A DNA stretch of 44,058 nucleotides from Armatimonadota bacterium (GTDB lineage: Bacteria; Armatimonadota; HRBIN16), in contig BPGU01000006.1 in NCBI GenBank assembly GCA_026003195.1, positions 1 through 44,058 of the forward strand. The letters run 5' to 3'. The position numbers and the translations under genes were made by a program. Of this stretch, positions 4,861-23,095 are shown in pieces (the stretch's first letter is position 1; each line of letters opens with the position of its first letter). The notes under the pieces were generated by a model. The model was given only the letters and a program-made list of their open reading frames with translations. It was not told the DNA's origin and did no database searches.

Positions 4861-5374
4861 GAATAACCCCGATGCAGGTAAACACCTGCCGCTCGCAAAA
4901 CGCGCGGCAGTAGACGAAAGAAGACTGCGTGCACTCGAAATCTACCGGGCAACCGGCTCGCTACACGATACCGCTAAAGCAATGCAGGCCGAAGGCTTCC
5001 AGGCCTACACGGATAAAACCGCATACAAAGATATCCGAGCCTGCCTCCAGGAATACGCACGCCTGCGCAAAGACCTGACGGAAGAACTCGTAGACCTCGA
5101 ACTCCTACACCTGAACAATATACAACGCGAAATCGAATCTACAATGCAACTGCACAGACCGAAAGCCGAAGACCCGCAGTCCGCATACATCGTGATAAAC
5201 GGAGCACAGGCACTCCTGAAAGTCTCCGCAGCACGAAGAAGACTCCTCGGCCTCGACAAACCGGCTGAAAAGACCGTACACATACAACAAAATATAACAG
5301 CCGCCGTGCTGAAAGCACACAAAGAACTAACCGATACAGTAGATGCTACCTTCTACGAAGACGATGCCACCTGA
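4859..5374 (+). CDS. Terminase small subunit-like DNA-binding protein
   Basis: A 171-residue protein with an N-terminal helix-turn-helix-like region (LEIYRATGSLHDTAKAMQ, about residues 24-41), a helical central segment and the RRLLGLDKPAEK pattern common near the C terminus of small terminases. It would recognise phage DNA for packaging by the divergently encoded large subunit. Small and large subunits usually lie in the same orientation, so the head-to-head arrangement with overlapping starts is unusual. No clear Shine-Dalgarno site precedes ATG 4859, so a leaderless transcript or another start is possible. The coding strand is A/C-rich, unlike other rightward genes. Confidence 0.65.
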   Translation: MNNPDAGKHLPLAKRAAVDERRLRALEIYRATGSLHDTAKAMQAEGFQAYTDKTAYKDIRACLQEYARLRKDLTEELVDLELLHLNNIQREIESTMQLHRPKAEDPQSAYIVINGAQALLKVSAARRRLLGLDKPAEKTVHIQQNITAAVLKAHKELTDTVDATFYEDDAT

Positions 5375-5810
5375 CGCCGAAAGATACTTCCGACTCTGGA
5401 AACAAACAAACCGGAAAATCTATAAGGAGCGATGCTGTAAAGCCCTGCAAACACACCTCTATACAATCTGTATCCGAACACTCGGAAGATACGACCCCGA
5501 TGTCGCCGCCGCAGGAAATAAAGGCATCGCACACGCAATCAACACATACTCCCCCGGCAAAGGAGCCAAACTCACAACCTACGCTTCACACTGCGCACGA
5601 TGCGAAATGCTGAAATACCTCTATAACAACTTCCACCACATCCGCGAACCCGCATACGTCCACACCCTCCGCAACAAAGCACGAAAACTAAACGCCTCTA
5701 CCCCGGAAGAAGCACAAACACTACTCCATATCCCCAAATGGCTCGCTATACTCATAACCTCCCCAAGACCCGAAATCATACCCATCGACGCCACAACACC
5801 CCACGACTAA
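5343..5810 (+). CDS. Short sigma-70-like factor lacking region 4
   Basis: Up to 155 residues. Residues about 52-112 match sigma region 2 and the start of region 3: DVAAAGNKGIAHAINTY, PGKGAKLTTYASH and HIREPAYVH, the last aligning with the RIP-x-H segment of primary sigmas. No region 4 helix-turn-helix follows. Such a protein could bind core RNA polymerase and contact the -10 element but would need a partner for the -35. The gene overlaps the small-terminase gene by 32 bp; an ATG at 5364 that overlaps the upstream stop is an alternative start. It may direct late transcription. Confidence 0.65.
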   Translation: MLPSTKTMPPDAERYFRLWKQTNRKIYKERCCKALQTHLYTICIRTLGRYDPDVAAAGNKGIAHAINTYSPGKGAKLTTYASHCARCEMLKYLYNNFHHIREPAYVHTLRNKARKLNASTPEEAQTLLHIPKWLAILITSPRPEIIPIDATTPHD

Positions 5811-6929: not shown

Positions 6930-7058
6930 CCCGCATCGCGGAAGGTGCGGGTCAGTTGGAGGGGATGCCGCCCTGCGGGGCGGCATCCTGCCGGATAGGG
7001 CGGCCGCAGGGGGCGGCCGCAGAGCGGCCGTAGGGCGGCCGCCGGGCAGCAGGGAGGC
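6927..7058 (+). other. Hairpin cluster between early genes
   Basis: The stop codon opens a 9-bp stem TGACCCGCA (6927..6935) / TGCGGGTCA (6946..6954). A 10-bp stem GGATGCCGCC (6963..6972) / GGCGGCATCC (6979..6988) follows, then several GCGGCCGC-type palindromes up to about 7043. No gene is seen. It could attenuate transcription or stabilise mRNA. Confidence 0.55.
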
Positions 7059-7114
7059 GATGTAAACGCGTGGAAAAAATTTCGCGGGCGATGCAGCCCG
7101 GCGGAAAAAATTTC
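7059..7114 (+). repeat. 25-bp GGAAAAAATTTC motif, copies 1 and 2
   Basis: Copy 1 (7059..7083) and copy 2 (7090..7114) share GATG, a GC-rich middle and the 12-base end GGAAAAAATTTC, with starts 31 bp apart. They lie directly upstream of the gene at 7193. Related copies are at 7900, 8735 and 8770. Confidence 0.7.
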
Positions 7115-7192
7115 GAGCCGAAACGGGAGACAGCCGTCCTCCGCAGGTGCCCGCTGCGGGGCTGAAGAGGCAGGGCAAAAGGAGGTGTCACG

Positions 7193-7829: not shown

Positions 7830-7899
7830 TTACCTCGACAGCGCATTCCGGCAGCACAGGGAAGGCCAGGTCCAAACCAATGCTTTCAGCAACCGCCGC

Positions 7900-7924
7900 A
7901 ATGCAGCGTCGCGGAAAAAATTTC
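7900..7924 (+). repeat. 25-bp GGAAAAAATTTC motif, copy 3
   Basis: Reads AATGCAGCGTCG then CGGAAAAAATTTC. It lies 90 bases upstream of the gene at 8014, in an otherwise gene-free stretch (7830-8013). Confidence 0.7.
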
Positions 7925-8013
7925 TGCGTCCTTCCCGCGTTGCCCTCCGTAGAGAGCAACGCGGGGCGGATGCCCCGGACGGGTTACTCCCGGAAACTTC
8001 TTGGAGGTGTAGA

Positions 8014-8614: not shown

Positions 8615-8827
8615 ATGGAAACACACAGGACCGAAGAGTACAGATGGTGGCACAGGGATGATGCCGCCAGGCAGCGCGGGCGCGCTGCAAAAGGGACGGA
8701 GAAGGCAGCGGGGGCTGCGACACGCGGAAAGTCCGGTGCAGCCTCGTGGGAAAATCCGCCGGGACGCCCGGTGCAAACCTGTAGAAAAAATCTTCGGGAT
8801 TTTTTCCGCTGCGGCCAAAAGTGTTGA
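8615..8827 (+). CDS. Small basic unknown protein
   Basis: A 70-residue reading frame starting at ATG 8615 with GGTGGAGG just upstream. It is rich in Arg, Lys, Ala and Gly (WWHRDDAARQRGRAAKG). Its second half overlaps motif copies 4 and 5 and a terminator-like hairpin, so the C-terminal part may not be under coding constraint. The good ribosome site is the main support. Confidence 0.35.
   Translation: METHRTEEYRWWHRDDAARQRGRAAKGTEKAAGAATRGKSGAASWENPPGRPVQTCRKNLRDFFRCGQKC
8735..8794 (+). repeat. 25-bp GGAAAAAATTTC motif, copies 4 and 5
   Basis: Copy 4 (8735..8759) and copy 5 (8770..8794) start 35 bp apart. They are more diverged: GGTGCAGCC followed by GGGAAAATCC, and GGTGCAAACC followed by GAAAAAATC. 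They lie just before the promoter at 8824. Confidence 0.5.
8784..8807 (+). terminator. A/T stem-loop before promoter
   Basis: GAAAAAATC (8784..8792) pairs with GATTTTTTC. The stem is A/T-rich and ends in a T run, so it could terminate upstream transcription, but it has few G:C pairs. Confidence 0.35.
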
Positions 8828-8851
8828 CATTACTTCTAGATGTGCTATAAT
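8824..8851 (+). promoter_or_regulatory. Consensus sigma-70 promoter
   Basis: TTGACA (8824..8829), 16 bases and TATAAT (8846..8851) match both consensus hexamers exactly. Transcription should begin near 8858, at the edge of a perfect inverted repeat. It would drive the 8934 gene and those downstream. Confidence 0.88.
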
Positions 8852-8858
8852 GTATACA

Positions 8859-8925
8859 GTGCAAGGAGAAAACAAACTTTTTGGCTCCTTGCACCCATTT
8901 TCGTGGCAGCGTGGTCTGCAAGGAG
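8859..8925 (+). promoter_or_regulatory. 5' UTR with two mutually exclusive stems
   Basis: GTGCAAGGAG (8859..8868) is perfectly complementary to CTCCTTGCAC (8885..8894). The same 3' arm is also complementary over nine bases to TGCAAGGAG (8917..8925), the ribosome site of the gene at 8934. Only one stem can form at a time: the first leaves the ribosome site free and the second covers it. This is a candidate translational switch. Confidence 0.6.
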
Positions 8926-8933
8926 GACTTGTA

Positions 8934-9305
8934 ATGGATTACAGGGACATGTGTTTGCGGGTGTACGACGAGGCGAACGAGGCGATATCGCAGCTCGACT
9001 CGCTCGCGGAGGAACTGGTGCAGCTTCGTAGAAAAAAAGAGGAGCTTGTGTCACAACTCGCTTCGAGGAAGGCCGAGATATCGCTGTCCATCGCTTCGAA
9101 CCCGGACATGAAGAACGACACGATGCGTAAGGCGGCGATAGAGCTTCAGCTGCAGAGCGATTCCGTCCAGGCCGAGCTTAGCGCGACAGAGCTTGCGATA
9201 GACGCAGTGCAACTGCAGATGGAGACGGTCAGACACCGCATCTCCGTCAGGAAAGCGCTGCTTTATGCGGCGGGAGGCATGTTTGGCGAACCGGCGGCCA
9301 GATAA
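8934..9305 (+). CDS. Coiled-coil protein of unknown function
   Basis: A 123-residue protein starting at ATG 8934, eight bases after AAGGAGG. It is almost entirely helical with heptad patterns (ISQLDSLAEELVQLRRKKEE, and LQSDSVQAELSATELAIDAV). It may be a structural or nucleic-acid-associated early factor. It is the first gene after the best promoter in the window, and its 3' end overlaps the start of the HNH gene. No family is recognised. Confidence 0.7.
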   Translation: MDYRDMCLRVYDEANEAISQLDSLAEELVQLRRKKEELVSQLASRKAEISLSIASNPDMKNDTMRKAAIELQLQSDSVQAELSATELAIDAVQLQMETVRHRISVRKALLYAAGGMFGEPAAR

Positions 9306-10179
9306 GCTTGCACGGACGCAGGACGGGTGCTTTCTATGCGGCTACAACCGCGTGGAGATGCACCACGTAGTTCCGAAAAGGATGGGGGGCAGCAAGGAGG
9401 CTGACACCCCGTCCAACCTTATGCCTCTATGCCCGAAGCATCACAGGATGGTAACGGAGAACATCATCCAGCTGCGCATAGAGGACGACCATGTGCACGT
9501 GATTCAGGGAGGAGCGATAGTCGCGTCCAGACCGCTCAAGACGGTCATGCCGGAACAGATAGGGCGATGGACACACGTGCTGCGCAACTCGCTGGACACG
9601 GTCGCGCAGAACATCGAATACCTTCCGGACGAGACGCTCAAGGAGCTGTACCACGCATGCTCCGAACTAGGAAAGCATGCGTTCGCAATGCAATGCGAGG
9701 TGGCGTACACGCTGTTCAACCGCGCAATCGGGACATACGAGAGCAAAGTCAATCAGGTAGCACAGATTCTCGGACTCAAAAGCACGAGTATCTTCTACCG
9801 CGTAAAGGCAAGGCTCGCGTTCGGACCGATGCTGCAGAACGCATGCGTTCCAGAGGCGACACCGTCACACCTGATGGTGGCAGCGTCTACGCCGGACCCA
9901 CTTCAATCAATTGAAGTGCTCAAGAAGATGGGGGACGACGGCCCAGTATCCGTCGCAAAGTACAAACAGGCCCTGCAGGATTTGAAGCAGCAGGACTCAA
10001 ACAGTGTGAGCCAGCCATACTCACACAAGTGCGGACTCTGCGAAAAATCCTGCCCACACAGGCGTATCGTAGAGGTGTGCGAGAAACATTCTCGCATCGT
10101 GAAGCCGGGGGAGTGCCCGGAAGGAGGACAATGTGCTTACACAGAAAGATGCAAGCATCGAGAGACAATGCGCAGCTAA
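9265..10179 (+). CDS. HNH endonuclease-like protein with Cys-rich tail
   Basis: Up to 304 residues. The N-terminal domain has CFLCG (22-26), EMHHVVPK (31-38), the Asn of SNLMPLCPKHH (50-60) and thus a canonical zinc-containing HNH fold. A helix-turn-helix-like segment lies near residues 155-185 (VNQVAQILGLKSTSIFYRVK), and the C terminus holds a second Cys/His cluster (CGLCEKSCPH). It probably nicks or cleaves DNA as a homing-type or packaging-linked nuclease. ATG 9265 is the outer start; TTG 9283, five bases after GGGAGG, may be the true one. A regulatory-looking palindrome lies in the coding sequence at 9900. Confidence 0.75.
   Translation: MRREACLANRRPDKLARTQDGCFLCGYNRVEMHHVVPKRMGGSKEADTPSNLMPLCPKHHRMVTENIIQLRIEDDHVHVIQGGAIVASRPLKTVMPEQIGRWTHVLRNSLDTVAQNIEYLPDETLKELYHACSELGKHAFAMQCEVAYTLFNRAIGTYESKVNQVAQILGLKSTSIFYRVKARLAFGPMLQNACVPEATPSHLMVAASTPDPLQSIEVLKKMGDDGPVSVAKYKQALQDLKQQDSNSVSQPYSHKCGLCEKSCPHRRIVEVCEKHSRIVKPGECPEGGQCAYTERCKHRETMRS
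9900..9917. promoter_or_regulatory. ACTTCA-N6-TGAAGT palindrome 2
   Basis: ACTTCAATCAATTGAAGT lies inside the HNH gene. With one flanking base each side the arms CACTTCAAT/ATTGAAGTG are perfect. Confidence 0.5.
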
Positions 10180-10513: not shown

Positions 10514-10787
10514 CGCTGTCACGGAGAAGACAGCCCCCGCCGTGCTCAACCGCATCAACGACGTGATGGGGCACAGGGAAGGAATCCCGTTCGAAAGCGA
10601 AGAGCAGGTGCGAGAATACTTCTCCGTGCAGTCGCTGCTCGAGATGAAGCCGGGCTTCTACGCGATTCAGGACTCACGCGGGCATGTCACTGTCTACGAC
10701 CTGGACGGCATGCCCTATGTCACGGAAGAATGGCTCAGGTGGGCTGCGGAAGTCGTAATCACGCACCGCGACCACTGCGCGTTCTGA
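10488..10787 (+). CDS. Unknown early protein
   Basis: A 99-residue protein starting at ATG 10488, preceded by GGAG within the upstream gene. It has a basic N terminus and a compact alpha/beta-looking core (VREYFSVQSLLEMKPGFYAI, then GHVTVYDLDGMPYV). No family is recognised. Its last codons (DHCAF) are the first unit of a tandem repeat that continues past the stop. Confidence 0.55.
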   Translation: MRTRSRANNAVTEKTAPAVLNRINDVMGHREGIPFESEEQVREYFSVQSLLEMKPGFYAIQDSRGHVTVYDLDGMPYVTEEWLRWAAEVVITHRDHCAF

Positions 10788-10865
10788 CCACTGCGCGTTC
10801 TGACGACTGCGCGTTCTGACCACTGCGCGTTCTGACGACTGCGCGTTCTGACCACTGCGCGTTCT
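10770..10865 (+). repeat. Six tandem 16-bp repeats
   Basis: Six contiguous copies of GACCACTGCGCGTTCT. Copies 3 and 5 read GACG instead of GACC; otherwise all are identical. The array begins in the last codons of the 10488 gene and ends directly at the ribosome site of the 10878 gene. It resembles an iteron array, or a recent slippage expansion. It is not a CRISPR array: no spacers are present. Confidence 0.9.
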
Positions 10866-10877
10866 AAGGAGGACACG

Positions 10878-11060
10878 ATGCTAAGGTGCAACAACTGCGG
10901 GACCGCGTTCCCTCGCGGGCAGTACCGCAGGGACGAGGACGGCTACGAGACTATCGGAAAAGGCTGGAGCTTCGGATTCGGGTGCAGCTTCTGCGGATGC
11001 ACGAGCGAGTTCGAGGAGGAAGAAGAGGAGGAATACTATGAGGACGAGGTTTACGCTTGA
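10878..11060 (+). CDS. Small zinc-ribbon protein with acidic tail
   Basis: A 60-residue protein with AAGGAGG before ATG 10878. It has CNNCG near the N terminus and CSFCGC near residues 36-41, two CxxC knuckles of a zinc ribbon, followed by a run of Glu. The codons for the Glu-rich tail also form the ribosome site of the next gene, which starts inside it at 11038. The partner is unknown. Confidence 0.65.
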   Translation: MLRCNNCGTAFPRGQYRRDEDGYETIGKGWSFGFGCSFCGCTSEFEEEEEEEYYEDEVYA

Positions 11061-11245: not shown

Positions 11246-11393
11246 CCCCGGCGGGAAAGGGGCGTTTCTACAATGCCTCTAAAACGCGTCAGATTGGCTC
11301 TACAGCGCGTCTGTGGGTATGGGTGGACTTCCTATACCCCCCGGCGATTTTGACGCGCTCTCAGGGCATTCTAGAGGCCTTTTTCCGCCGGGG
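11246..11393 (+). repeat. Structured element A (21-bp-period family)
   Basis: The outer arms CCCCGGCGG (11246..11254) and CCGCCGGGG (11385..11393) enclose further pairings: CGCGTCA (11285..11291) with TGACGCG (11351..11357), and GGGTAT/ATACCC around the centre. The sequence AATGCC...AGATTGGCTCTACAGCGCG has a 21-bp period shared with elements at 11674 and 22977. It follows the last gene of a unit and ends in TTTT, so it may be a terminator or processing signal. Confidence 0.65.
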
Positions 11394-11480: not shown

Positions 11481-11687
11481 ATGAATGCAGATGTGTACGT
11501 CGCAGCGCGAATCGCTTCTTCCCTTCGCGACGGACATGCAAGCGAAGGCACGCAGCTTCTGGCTTACGCCCTGTGGCGTCTGGCACGGGCGATAAGCACG
11601 GAAGATGCGGAAAGAGCCGTGGACGAAGTCCTCGGCGAAACACGGGTTTCGGGCACGGTCTCGGGGGACGTGCCAGAATGCCCGTAA
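11481..11687 (+). CDS. Small unknown protein
   Basis: A 68-residue frame starting at ATG 11481, eight bases after GGAG; an ATG at 11472 is too close to that site. It reads MNADVYVAARIASSLRDGHA with a helical middle (LLAYALWRLARAISTEDAER). The stop TAA lies inside repeated element C. No family is recognised. It is a plausible gene in a mostly non-coding stretch. Confidence 0.45.
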   Translation: MNADVYVAARIASSLRDGHASEGTQLLAYALWRLARAISTEDAERAVDEVLGETRVSGTVSGDVPECP

Positions 11688-11769
11688 ATGGCCCTAGAAT
11701 GCCCGTACAGCGCACGCAGAAGCGAAGAGGTCTTCTGATACCTCTGAGCGAAATTCGTGCGCTGTACGG
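11674..11769 (+). repeat. Structured element C (21-bp-period family)
   Basis: AGAATGCCCGTA is present at 11675 and again 21 bp later at 11696. CCGTACAGCGCACG (11703..11716) pairs perfectly with CGTGCGCTGTACGG (11756..11769), and an AGAGGT/ACCTCT stem lies inside. About 40 bases match element B at 22977 with few differences. Confidence 0.65.
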
Positions 11770-13833: not shown

Positions 13834-14421
13834 CTAGGCCGGTTGGCCCGCCGCGTACGGCTGCATGACGGCAGCCCTGCTCGCAACATTGCGAGCAGCG
13901 ATGGTATCAGCCGGCCCAGCGAAGCCGCAGCCGATACACCGGAAATGCGCCTGCGACGGACGGTTGGCTTTTGCCACATGCCCGCAGGCGGGGCAGGTCC
14001 GGGAGGTGTTCCGGGGATCGACAAGGATCACCGGAATGCCTGCCAGACGAGCCTTATACTCGACGAAGGAGCGAAGCTGATGGAACGCCCAACTGTGCTG
14101 GACGCGACGCTGAGCCTTCTCAACCGAGAGCCGTTCGCGGATGCCCTTGAGGTTTTCCGGGGCGATGCCGCGACCGGTGCCTTTGGCCTTCGCGACCAGC
14201 TGCTTGCTGATGACGTGGACGGCCATCTGAGCAGGCAGGCCAAACCGTTCCCGGATGTCGTAGTAGACGAGTTTCTGGAGCCTGATCTTGTTGGCCGTCT
14301 GCTCCCGGAAGGCGACTTCGGCAACAGCGTTACACGCCGCGTTGAACCGCTCCATCGTCTCCAGAAGGGCGGCGGCCTGCTCGGGCGTCGGTTGAAGCTT
14401 GACCATCAGCGTCAGGTTCAT
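13834..14421 (-). pseudogene. TnpB with in-frame loss of the centre
   Basis: About 195 residues from ATG 14421 (the frame extends up to 14448), against about 380-400 for TnpB. The N terminus (MVKLQPTPEQAAALLETMER) is intact. After HVISKQLVAKAKG the frame passes straight into RuvC-II (IAPENLKGIRERL), the zinc finger (CPACG...CIGCG) and RuvC-III (GPADTIAARN). RuvC-I with its Asp and much of the central region are missing, yet the frame is kept. It cannot be a normal nuclease. Either it is a decaying relic or a nuclease-dead RNA-guided protein. Confidence 0.7.
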
Positions 14422-14427
14422 GTTCTG

Positions 14428-14456
14428 ATTATAACACGAAACCCTCAATCTCGCAA
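14428..14456 (-). promoter_or_regulatory. Promoter of the deleted tnpB
   Basis: TTGCGA (14456..14451), 17 bases and TATAAT (14433..14428) on the minus strand. The start point would fall about at ATG 14421, suggesting a leaderless transcript. Confidence 0.6.
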
Positions 14457-14538: not shown

Positions 14539-15234
14539 ATGAAAGTAAAGGGTTCATCGTCTTGGCAGAAGCGTGAACGCCCAGGAAGCCTGACGCAACA
14601 GCAGCGGGAGTTCATAGAGAAGAACTGTCTCTCTATGTCGAACGAGGAGTTGCAGCAGGCTTTGAATGTCGGCAAGAAGACGATACAGTATCACGCCTCC
14701 AGGGCTAGACGCAAGCTTCGGAGCGGCGCTGTCAGGCAGTGCGACCTCAGGTCTTTGCTCGGCATATCATACGTGCGGCTGCGCGACTTCACACGTGTGA
14801 AGCCTGTTGCCGGTATGTGGCGTGCGGAGGATATGGACTCGCTTATCGAAGACCTGTGGTGGATGTGCTCTGTGGACCGGGCTGCTCCAGAGTATCGCGC
14901 CAAGATTCTCGAATGCGCGAAGGGCTGGGTGCACACGAAGGACCTTGCGAGCATCGGGATGCCGCGCGAAGTCGCGGTGTCTCTTTGTAACGCAGGAATA
15001 GGGGAGCATAAAGGCAAGTACTTCCGCATCCCGCAGGATGTAGTCGAGCGTTATCTGCGGTTCAAGGAGGAACGTGGTCTAAGAGACTGGAGGCACCGTG
15101 GATATCCCGGGCAGCACGCAGCCGGGTTCGTGCAGGAGGTGATACGTGAACGGTACGGAAAGGATTCTGCGCTACACGCTGTATCCGAACCTGTACACGA
15201 AGAGCGGGAAGACGCTGCAGGGAACGTGGGATGA
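14539..15234 (+). CDS. HTH DNA-binding protein
   Basis: A 231-residue protein with GGAGG before ATG 14539. Residues about 18-60 form a helix-turn-helix (LTQQQREFIEKNCLSMSNEE then KKTIQYHASRARRKL) like those in terminase- or sigma-associated phage regulators. A second DNA-binding-like segment lies near 135-175 (HTKDLASIGMPREVAVSL). It may regulate the replication operon. Its end overlaps the primase start by 89 bp, and an ACTTCA palindrome lies inside the gene. Confidence 0.6.
   Translation: MKVKGSSSWQKRERPGSLTQQQREFIEKNCLSMSNEELQQALNVGKKTIQYHASRARRKLRSGAVRQCDLRSLLGISYVRLRDFTRVKPVAGMWRAEDMDSLIEDLWWMCSVDRAAPEYRAKILECAKGWVHTKDLASIGMPREVAVSLCNAGIGEHKGKYFRIPQDVVERYLRFKEERGLRDWRHRGYPGQHAAGFVQEVIRERYGKDSALHAVSEPVHEEREDAAGNVG
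14786..14803. promoter_or_regulatory. ACTTCA-N6-TGAAG palindrome 3
   Basis: ACTTCACACGTGTGAAGC contains the perfect 16-bp palindrome CTTCACACGTGTGAAG. It lies inside the HTH gene. Confidence 0.5.
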
Positions 15235-16000
15235 GTTCACGCGGTGGCTGGAATCCGTCCGGTGCGAGACTGCGGAAAAATTCTCCTGCCCGGCCTGGGT
15301 TCCAGCTGCCGTGCTCGGAGACAGGTGTTCGGCTAACGTGCAGTCCATCTGCATGTTCGCCGCCGATGTGGACTCTGCGGCGATACGCATAGAGGACGCG
15401 TTCCGGTTGCTGTCCGGGATTGCGTGCGCGATGCATACGACATGGAGCGACGACGGCAACGGTATGCGCTATCGCATAATCGTGCCTCTTATGCAGGACT
15501 GTCCGGCTGATGTATGGAGAGGCGTCTGGAGGAGGATGTGTAAGTGGCTCGACAGACGCGGCATCCCTGCAGACAGGCAGTGCAGCGATGTTTCGAGAGC
15601 ATATCTCGTGCCTTCGCATAAGCCGGGCACGCCCTGCGTATTCCTTAGCCGCTCAGGCATCGCGTACGACTGTACGGACGCAATCGCGGCGGAGACTTTG
15701 CAACTAGAAAAAAATCGCCAGCAGCAAAAAAACGTCTTGACATCAAGATGTTTTTGTGATAGAATGAGTCTAAGCCCGGAGAGGCTTGTGGACATTGCTG
15801 TAAGAAAGGCTGCGCGAGGCAGGAACAATGCAGGGTTCTGGCTGTGCGCAGCACTGTGTGATTCAGGATGCTCTGAGGACGAAGCTGCACTTGTGTTGCA
15901 GGAGTATGTGACCAGAGTCAGTTCGTGTGGCGGGCATATATACACGATTGCGGAGGCAATGCGTACTCTGCGGTCTGTGTACAGGAGGAACAGGTGGTAA
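15146..16000 (+). CDS. Primase of archaeo-eukaryotic type (PrimPol-like)
   Basis: A 284-residue protein starting at GTG 15146 behind AGGAGGTG. The catalytic part shows FAADVDSA with a DxD (Asp 74 and 76), AMHTTWSDDG (His 97), YRIIVPL, and CSDVSRAYLVPSHKPG near 147-161, the pattern of AEP primases of phages and plasmids. A Gln/Lys linker (about 190-205) leads to a helical C-terminal domain (ARGRNNAGFWLCAALCDSG) like primase C-terminal modules. It makes primers behind the DnaB-like helicase. A strong promoter lies in the linker DNA. Confidence 0.7.
   Translation: MNGTERILRYTLYPNLYTKSGKTLQGTWDEFTRWLESVRCETAEKFSCPAWVPAAVLGDRCSANVQSICMFAADVDSAAIRIEDAFRLLSGIACAMHTTWSDDGNGMRYRIIVPLMQDCPADVWRGVWRRMCKWLDRRGIPADRQCSDVSRAYLVPSHKPGTPCVFLSRSGIAYDCTDAIAAETLQLEKNRQQQKNVLTSRCFCDRMSLSPERLVDIAVRKAARGRNNAGFWLCAALCDSGCSEDEAALVLQEYVTRVSSCGGHIYTIAEAMRTLRSVYRRNRW
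15728..15765 (+). promoter_or_regulatory. Promoter plus operator inside the primase gene
   Basis: TTGACA (15737..15742), 17 bases and TAGAAT (15760..15765) form a near-consensus promoter. A palindrome with 14-base arms and one mismatch (15728..15755, AAAAAC-TCTTGA mirrored by TCAAGA-GTTTTT) is centred on the -35. It could drive the genes from 16000 onward, or a separate C-terminal primase fragment. Confidence 0.7.
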
Positions 16001-22936: not shown

Positions 22937-22976
22937 AAGGAGGGAGCGTAGCCAGCCGCGCTCCCTCCTTCTTTTT
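22937..22976 (+). terminator. Rho-independent terminator of the rightward operon
   Basis: AAGGAGGGAGCG (22937..22948) pairs with CGCTCCCTCCTT (22959..22970), followed by CTTTTTC. Upstream, an AACCAGAC/GTCTGGTT stem inside GTAGTG/CACTAC (about 22853..22915) adds another hairpin. Confidence 0.85.
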
Positions 22977-23095
22977 CTAGAATGCCCGCAAATGCCCCTA
23001 GATTGACCGTACAGCGCGTCTAGATGCCTGGGGGTATTCCGGTGCCTCCCCGCGTTTTTCACGCGCTGTGAGGGCAACGTAGAGGCGTTTTGTGG
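22977..23095 (+). repeat. Structured element B (21-bp-period family)
   Basis: AGAATGCCCGCAAATGCCCC (from 22979) and AGATTGACCGTACAGCGCG (from 23000) are 21 bp apart, as in elements A and C. ACAGCGCGT (23011..23019) pairs with ACGCGCTGT (23061..23069). The 3' part (ACGCGCT-T-AGGGCA, TAGAGGC, TTTT) matches element A. Confidence 0.65.

Follow-up and report, generated by a model that had tools for sequence, protein, structure and literature searches.

Does the leader of a short phage gene control translation of that gene by offering one of its segments two mutually exclusive pairing partners? The gene in question starts at position 8934 of a 44,058-bp stretch of DNA (hereafter, the window), which is one entire contig of a 4.58-Mb bacterial assembly. 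Judging from its gene content, the window is the phage genome of an uncharacterized bacterial virus: it encodes the terminase large subunit, portal, head and tape-measure proteins, a DnaB-like helicase, an HNH protein, a homologue of the DNA polymerase III beta-clamp, and a pair of proteins bearing partial sigma-factor domains. An overlap between the two ends of the contig was looked for, and none was found. The minus strand carries the structural genes and the plus strand carries the replication and early-type genes; the leader upstream of the 8934 gene stands at the start of one plus-strand unit. The next gene downstream, which has the same direction and encodes the HNH-domain protein, probably shares an early operon with the 8934 gene. 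The features of the locus are as follows.

8824..8851, plus strand: sigma-70-type promoter TTGACA-16-TATAAT with an extended -10 TG, a 12/12 match
8859..8868, plus strand: arm 1, GTGCAAGGAG, a mimic of the Shine-Dalgarno (SD) sequence and the 5' strand of hairpin A, a perfect complement of 8885-8894
8869..8884, plus strand: loop of hairpin A, 16 nt, A/U-rich, from the folding of the growing transcript
8885..8894, plus strand: arm 2, CTCCTTGCAC, the shared anti-SD arm, from the sequence and the folding
8917..8925, plus strand: arm 3, TGCAAGGAG, which repeats 9 bases of arm 1 and holds most of the SD AAGGAGG (8920-8926)
8881..8934, plus strand: possible leader ORF of 17 codons with a TTG start, read from the sequence
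8934..9305, plus strand: controlled gene, an orphan of 123 aa, predicted to form a two-helix hairpin (helices 3-55 and 62-118)
9265..10179, plus strand: gene of the HNH-domain protein (PHROG HNH, 7e-9; Pfam HNH, 1.3e-4)

Several other elements of the phage genome deserve mention. Two separate plus-strand genes encode proteins with different parts of a sigma factor, a 155-aa protein with sigma-70 region 2 only (5343-5810; Pfam 6e-5) and a 231-aa protein with a region-4-like sigma domain only (14539-15234; Pfam 1.3e-4), both just below the Pfam cut-off; together, they could be a single sigma factor split over two genes. The minus strand carries a 204-aa ORF (13834-14448) whose translation, judged by eye, resembles a TnpB, with a start and a zinc-ribbon end, and is far shorter than usual; it has its own 10/12 promoter at 14456. 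A 16-bp unit (GACCACTGCGCGTTCT/GACGACTGCGCGTTCT) is repeated in tandem over positions 10754-10881, beginning where the 10488 gene ends and continuing up to the SD of the 10878 gene. Small interspersed repeats, mostly intergenic, are found at 7056-7115, 7897-7925, 8784-8806, 11265-11312, 11670-11717, and 22974-23021 and belong to two families, one with GGAAAAAATTTC and the other with AGAATGCCCGTA.

The original prediction described a perfect-consensus promoter followed by three arms, and both descriptions hold to the exact coordinate, with perfect pairings. The promoter is the sole promoter-like site between positions 8000 and 10000 and the sole 12/12 site in the window. The position of its -10 element predicts an RNA start at ~8858, with arm 1 beginning at the predicted +2. 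Arm 2 can pair either with arm 1 (10 bp) or with the SD copy (9 bp, 8885-8893 with 8917-8925, again perfect), and arm 3 matches arm 1 for three bases (TGC) past the AAGGAG core. On both strands of the window taken together, TGCAAGGAG occurs 3 times, always inside the leader of the 8934 gene. The host 16S rRNA ends in GGATCACCTCCTTTCT, complementary to the SD, which makes AAGGAGG a good SD. It lies 7 nt from the ATG at 8934, and third-position GC is 0.73 in the gene versus 0.40 in the leader, so this ATG is the likely start codon. Elsewhere in the window, at 15737-15795, a strong 11/12 promoter has a short hairpin (AAGCC-CGGAGA-GGCTT) close after its predicted start.

The rarity of the three-arm arrangement was assessed in several ways. 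When the entire window was scanned for 9-base hairpins with a third copy of the arm within 60 bases, exactly one such triple was found; 0.01 are expected over both strands, and 0.7% of dinucleotide shuffles of the window contain a triple. Shuffling underestimates hairpins, of which the actual window has far more (57 nine-base hairpins versus 5.8), and the leader itself was therefore also tested, by shuffling it 40,000 times with the SD held fixed. An anti-SD of at least 9 bases appeared in 0.045% of these shuffled leaders, and the full triple appeared in none of the 40,000, even at 7 bases. Among the 57 SD-bearing starts in the window (those with ORFs of at least 60 aa), only the one at 8934 has the triple. 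An upstream anti-SD longer than 6 bases is likewise limited to this start, the one exception being its own palindrome when read on the opposite strand. Because the arrangement is so rare in the window and in the shuffled leaders and is the sole one among the 57 starts, it is unlikely to be an accident, albeit with some selection effect, as a single unusual leader was picked out of the many features scanned.

Folding was computed for two competing states: state A, in which arm 1 pairs with arm 2, and state B, in which arm 2 pairs with the SD copy and the SD is hidden. In the growing RNA, a transient early hairpin comes first, formed by weak pairing of the loop with arm 1 (8862-8868 with 8877-8883; -4.5 kcal/mol at 8884). 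It is supplanted at 8892-8896 by hairpin A (-17.5 kcal/mol), which is complete before the SD has been transcribed. The probability of state A in the intact RNA is about 0.997, being at least 0.99 at all tested 3' ends from 8936 to 9200 and 0.98 to 1.0 in the read-through RNAs, and the occupancy of state B is about 0. State B combined with the early hairpin reaches -32.0 kcal/mol versus -39.1 kcal/mol for state A, which makes it 7.1 kcal/mol worse, and the computed path from A to B has a barrier of about 21 kcal/mol. The mutually exclusive pairing behind the proposed RNA switch is real, but with this dominance, energy gap, and barrier the leader is not a poised two-state device. The fold of the 105-nt leader is modestly more stable than those of shuffled sequences (z-score, -2.4).

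The role of anti-sequester assigned to arm 1 in the original prediction is borne out by these computations: when arm 1 is absent or changed, the probability of the SD-hiding helix moves from about 0 to 0.90-0.99 in RNAs that end at 8936-8970. In longer RNAs without arm 1, the probability of state B is variable, from 0.0 to 0.96 (e.g., with 3' ends at 9000 and 9050). Opening the SD costs ~5 kcal/mol in state A versus 6 to 9 kcal/mol without arm 1 (RNAs ending at 8962-8970). In state A, the SD and the start codon are still within local structure, with G8923, G8926, and A8927 free, and opening the whole ribosome footprint takes 11 to 16 kcal/mol (RNAs ending at 8962-9000). Since the SD sits in its own small local structure in state A, it is easier, not free, to open, and the word “open” is used here in this relative sense.

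The signals that the switch had been proposed to sense fare less well. Temperature is contradicted: between 10 and 80°C, the probability of state A is 0.86 to 1.0 and the difference between A and B goes from 7.8 to 6.0 kcal/mol with no crossover, so an RNA thermometer was rejected. A plain sensor of the transcription rate is unlikely because state A is both the earlier to form and the more stable. Sensing of a ligand or a protein is unsupported, there being no match to an Rfam family and no homologue showing conserved loops. A transcription attenuator was rejected, as there is no terminator-like site on the plus strand between 8000 and 10000, and a known riboswitch class is not indicated, as an Rfam search of the window gave no match at the gathering score.

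The product of the 8934 gene was modeled by AlphaFold2 with good confidence (mean pLDDT, 88.5). The family search with this 123-aa protein gave no match above the cut-off, comparison of its fold with viral proteins gave no significant match, and its features contain no hint of RNA binding or autoregulation. No relative of the 8934 gene was detected in 151 related genomes or in phage and plasmid records. Neither the HNH protein nor the hairpin pattern brought up anything usable in 291 genomes of the phylum, and searches of viral contigs with the 8934 product and the HNH, DnaB, TerL, and portal proteins returned no usable homologous locus; the exact hairpin is likewise absent from the viral contigs. 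In the collections searched, no homologous leader was found for covariation.

Look-alike patterns do occur elsewhere. In 257 Gb of genomes, AAGGAG/CTCCTTGC/GCAAGGAG had 17 matches versus ~8 expected by a rough estimate from base counts only, and few of these 17 precede a start codon with a long ORF. The SD-anchored pattern had 36 matches in viral contigs versus 23 for a control with scrambled arms (31 versus 15 when non-redundant), many of them U-tailed and of the terminator type. These look-alikes appear to be mostly terminators or near the chance level. The AAGGAG-CTCCTT-AAGGAG pattern alone predicts switches poorly, because many look-alikes are terminators ahead of the next gene. The only other AAGGAG/CTCCTT/AAGGAG pattern in the entire host genome is in the same contig (22883-22970, plus strand), where a 12-bp hairpin is followed by CTTTTTCT; it looks like the terminator of the early unit. 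Two matches are without a U-tract. One, in a viral contig (L055, 6338-6397), has GTCAAGGAG/CTCCTTGAC/TCAAGGAGG ahead of a 55-aa ORF and a leader fold z-score of -3.8; relatives of the genes of this contig were searched for, and none were found. The other, in Cohnella (L019, near 1248), has a 13-bp hairpin with GCAAGGAG ahead of a 522-codon ORF. These two loci share the three-part anatomy, are unrelated in sequence, and are too few to define a class.

We tentatively suggest, with somewhat less than even confidence, that the leader serves as a guard on translation, placed at the 5' end of a phage mRNA and open by default. That the guard would be open by default is the natural reading because state A forms first and is more stable. 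The RNA from ~8858 would fold arm 1 onto arm 2 immediately, by 10 bp, capping the 5' end. The same fold would hide arm 2, the anti-SD arm, and would thereby leave the ribosome site ahead of the 8934 gene available. If arm 1 were lost by 5' trimming or by cleavage within the A/U-rich loop (8869-8884), or were held by a protein or another RNA, the freed arm 2 could pair with the SD copy, and translation would be lowered. Here we infer both that the RNA folds in the cell as it does in the computation and that some event removes or occupies arm 1. In other RNAs, secondary structure at the 5' end slows 5'-end-dependent decay and shields 5' ends from pyrophosphate removal (PMC3997798). The guard is consistent with a triple beyond chance, an SD copy longer than the core, a hairpin A that is complete before the SD, the dominance of state A at all RNA lengths, the shift to state B in RNAs without arm 1 that end at 8936-8970, and the lower cost of opening the SD in state A; it is at odds with a closed state that is not robust in longer RNAs and with an “open” SD that is still partly structured. 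Switching by the leader is hypothetical, as is any nuclease, protein, or RNA that would act on arm 1.

The strongest rival to the guard, which we nevertheless consider unlikely, is stabilization without translational regulation: a plain 5'-terminal hairpin whose 10-bp stem guards the early mRNA from 5'-end-dependent decay, its likeness to the SD being incidental. The stem would start one base after the predicted 5' end, at -17.5 kcal/mol, and mRNAs are indeed stabilized by 5' structures (PMC3997798). Purine-rich AAGGAG arms are common, and the window is generally enriched in hairpins, as the excess of nine-base ones over shuffles indicates. What argues against an incidental likeness is the third copy, 9 bases long and thus three beyond the AAGGAG core, together with the lack of the triple in all 40,000 shuffled leaders. 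Another reading, distinctly improbable in our estimate, is a checkpoint of 5' integrity, in which ribosomes could use their site only as long as the mRNA kept its original 5' end, where the SD copy would hold the anti-SD arm. Once a host or phage nuclease cut or trimmed the 5' end, arm 2 would flip onto the SD and the decaying message would be silenced. If true, this would be a cis-encoded coupling of 5' decay to translational shut-off.

A true sensing switch, in which a ligand, a protein, or the speed of transcription stabilizes the early hairpin (8862-8868/8877-8883) or a signal binds arm 1, with the SD becoming hidden, is slightly more doubtful again. Together with the early hairpin, state B makes a coherent alternative fold at the energy given above, but it would cost about 7 kcal/mol across the barrier of about 21 kcal/mol; Rfam offers no match and temperature is excluded; and the early hairpin, which is weak, G-U rich, and closed by a loop of 8 nt, does not resemble known aptamers. 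The arms might instead act as a DNA operator, with the inverted repeat at +2 to +37 binding a repressor of the early promoter and the SD copy serving as a third half-site. Phage early promoters are usually repressed, which is in favor of such an operator, as are the perfect 10-bp arms just downstream of the strongest promoter. The half-site centers are, however, about 25 and 32 bp apart, a poor fit for a single dimer, an operator does not need a third copy exactly on the SD, and the window has no matching sites elsewhere, so we give this explanation little credence. We give still less to an attenuator (of the erm type) or coupler based on a leader peptide, in which arm 1 would be the SD of the 17-codon ORF, at a 12-nt gap, and the ribosomes on that ORF would unfold hairpin A and supply the main gene. 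AAGGAG, the open frame, and the overlap of the TAA stop (8932-8934) with the ATG of the main gene (TAATG) are all in the sequence. However, TTG at a 12-nt gap makes a weak start, the SD of this ORF (arm 1) is predicted to be paired with a probability of about 1, and the open frame is not evidence because the leader is free of stops in all three forward frames.

If the default-open guard holds, an SD copy at the 5' end suffices to tie translation to an intact mRNA start, an idea that is easily testable. If it fails, the locus is still a clean and experimentally tractable leader in an unstudied phage.

Translational riboswitch platforms use a three-strand logic of SD, anti-SD, and anti-anti-SD, i.e., a sequester and an anti-sequester. 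The phage leader has the same logic, but, unlike these riboswitches, it has no aptamer domain or Rfam match and its arm 1 is at the extreme 5' end. It resembles the cIII mRNA of phage lambda in that an early phage gene has two alternative mRNA folds, one exposing and the other hiding the ribosome site; cIII, however, is a two-state thermosensor whose folds are shifted by temperature (PMC8346122), whereas state A dominates here from 10 to 80°C. As in the type I toxin mRNA aapA3 of Helicobacter pylori, the anti-SD that competes for the SD while the RNA is being transcribed lies upstream (PMC6733600). In aapA3, hairpins transiently close the SD (PMC6733600), whereas in the phage an SD mimic has already captured the upstream arm; the phage leader showed no features of a toxin-antitoxin system. 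In the maturation-gene leader of MS2, as reported in the work cited there (van Meerten 2001, cited in PMC6733600), the fold that allows translation is short-lived, and the stable one is the closed cloverleaf. To the extent of that account, the two leaders are alike in that the SD can be covered by a sequence upstream of it, with which a rival leader structure competes, and differ in that the stable fold here is the open one; MS2 is an RNA phage, and its sequence is unrelated. Bacterial 5'-terminal stabilizing hairpins (reviewed in PMC3997798) likewise have a strong stem, here within a base or two of the predicted 5' end, but they need no SD-related sequence. Among the known SD/anti-SD leaders, this one is best described as a real structure that is most likely a default-open 5' hairpin guard.
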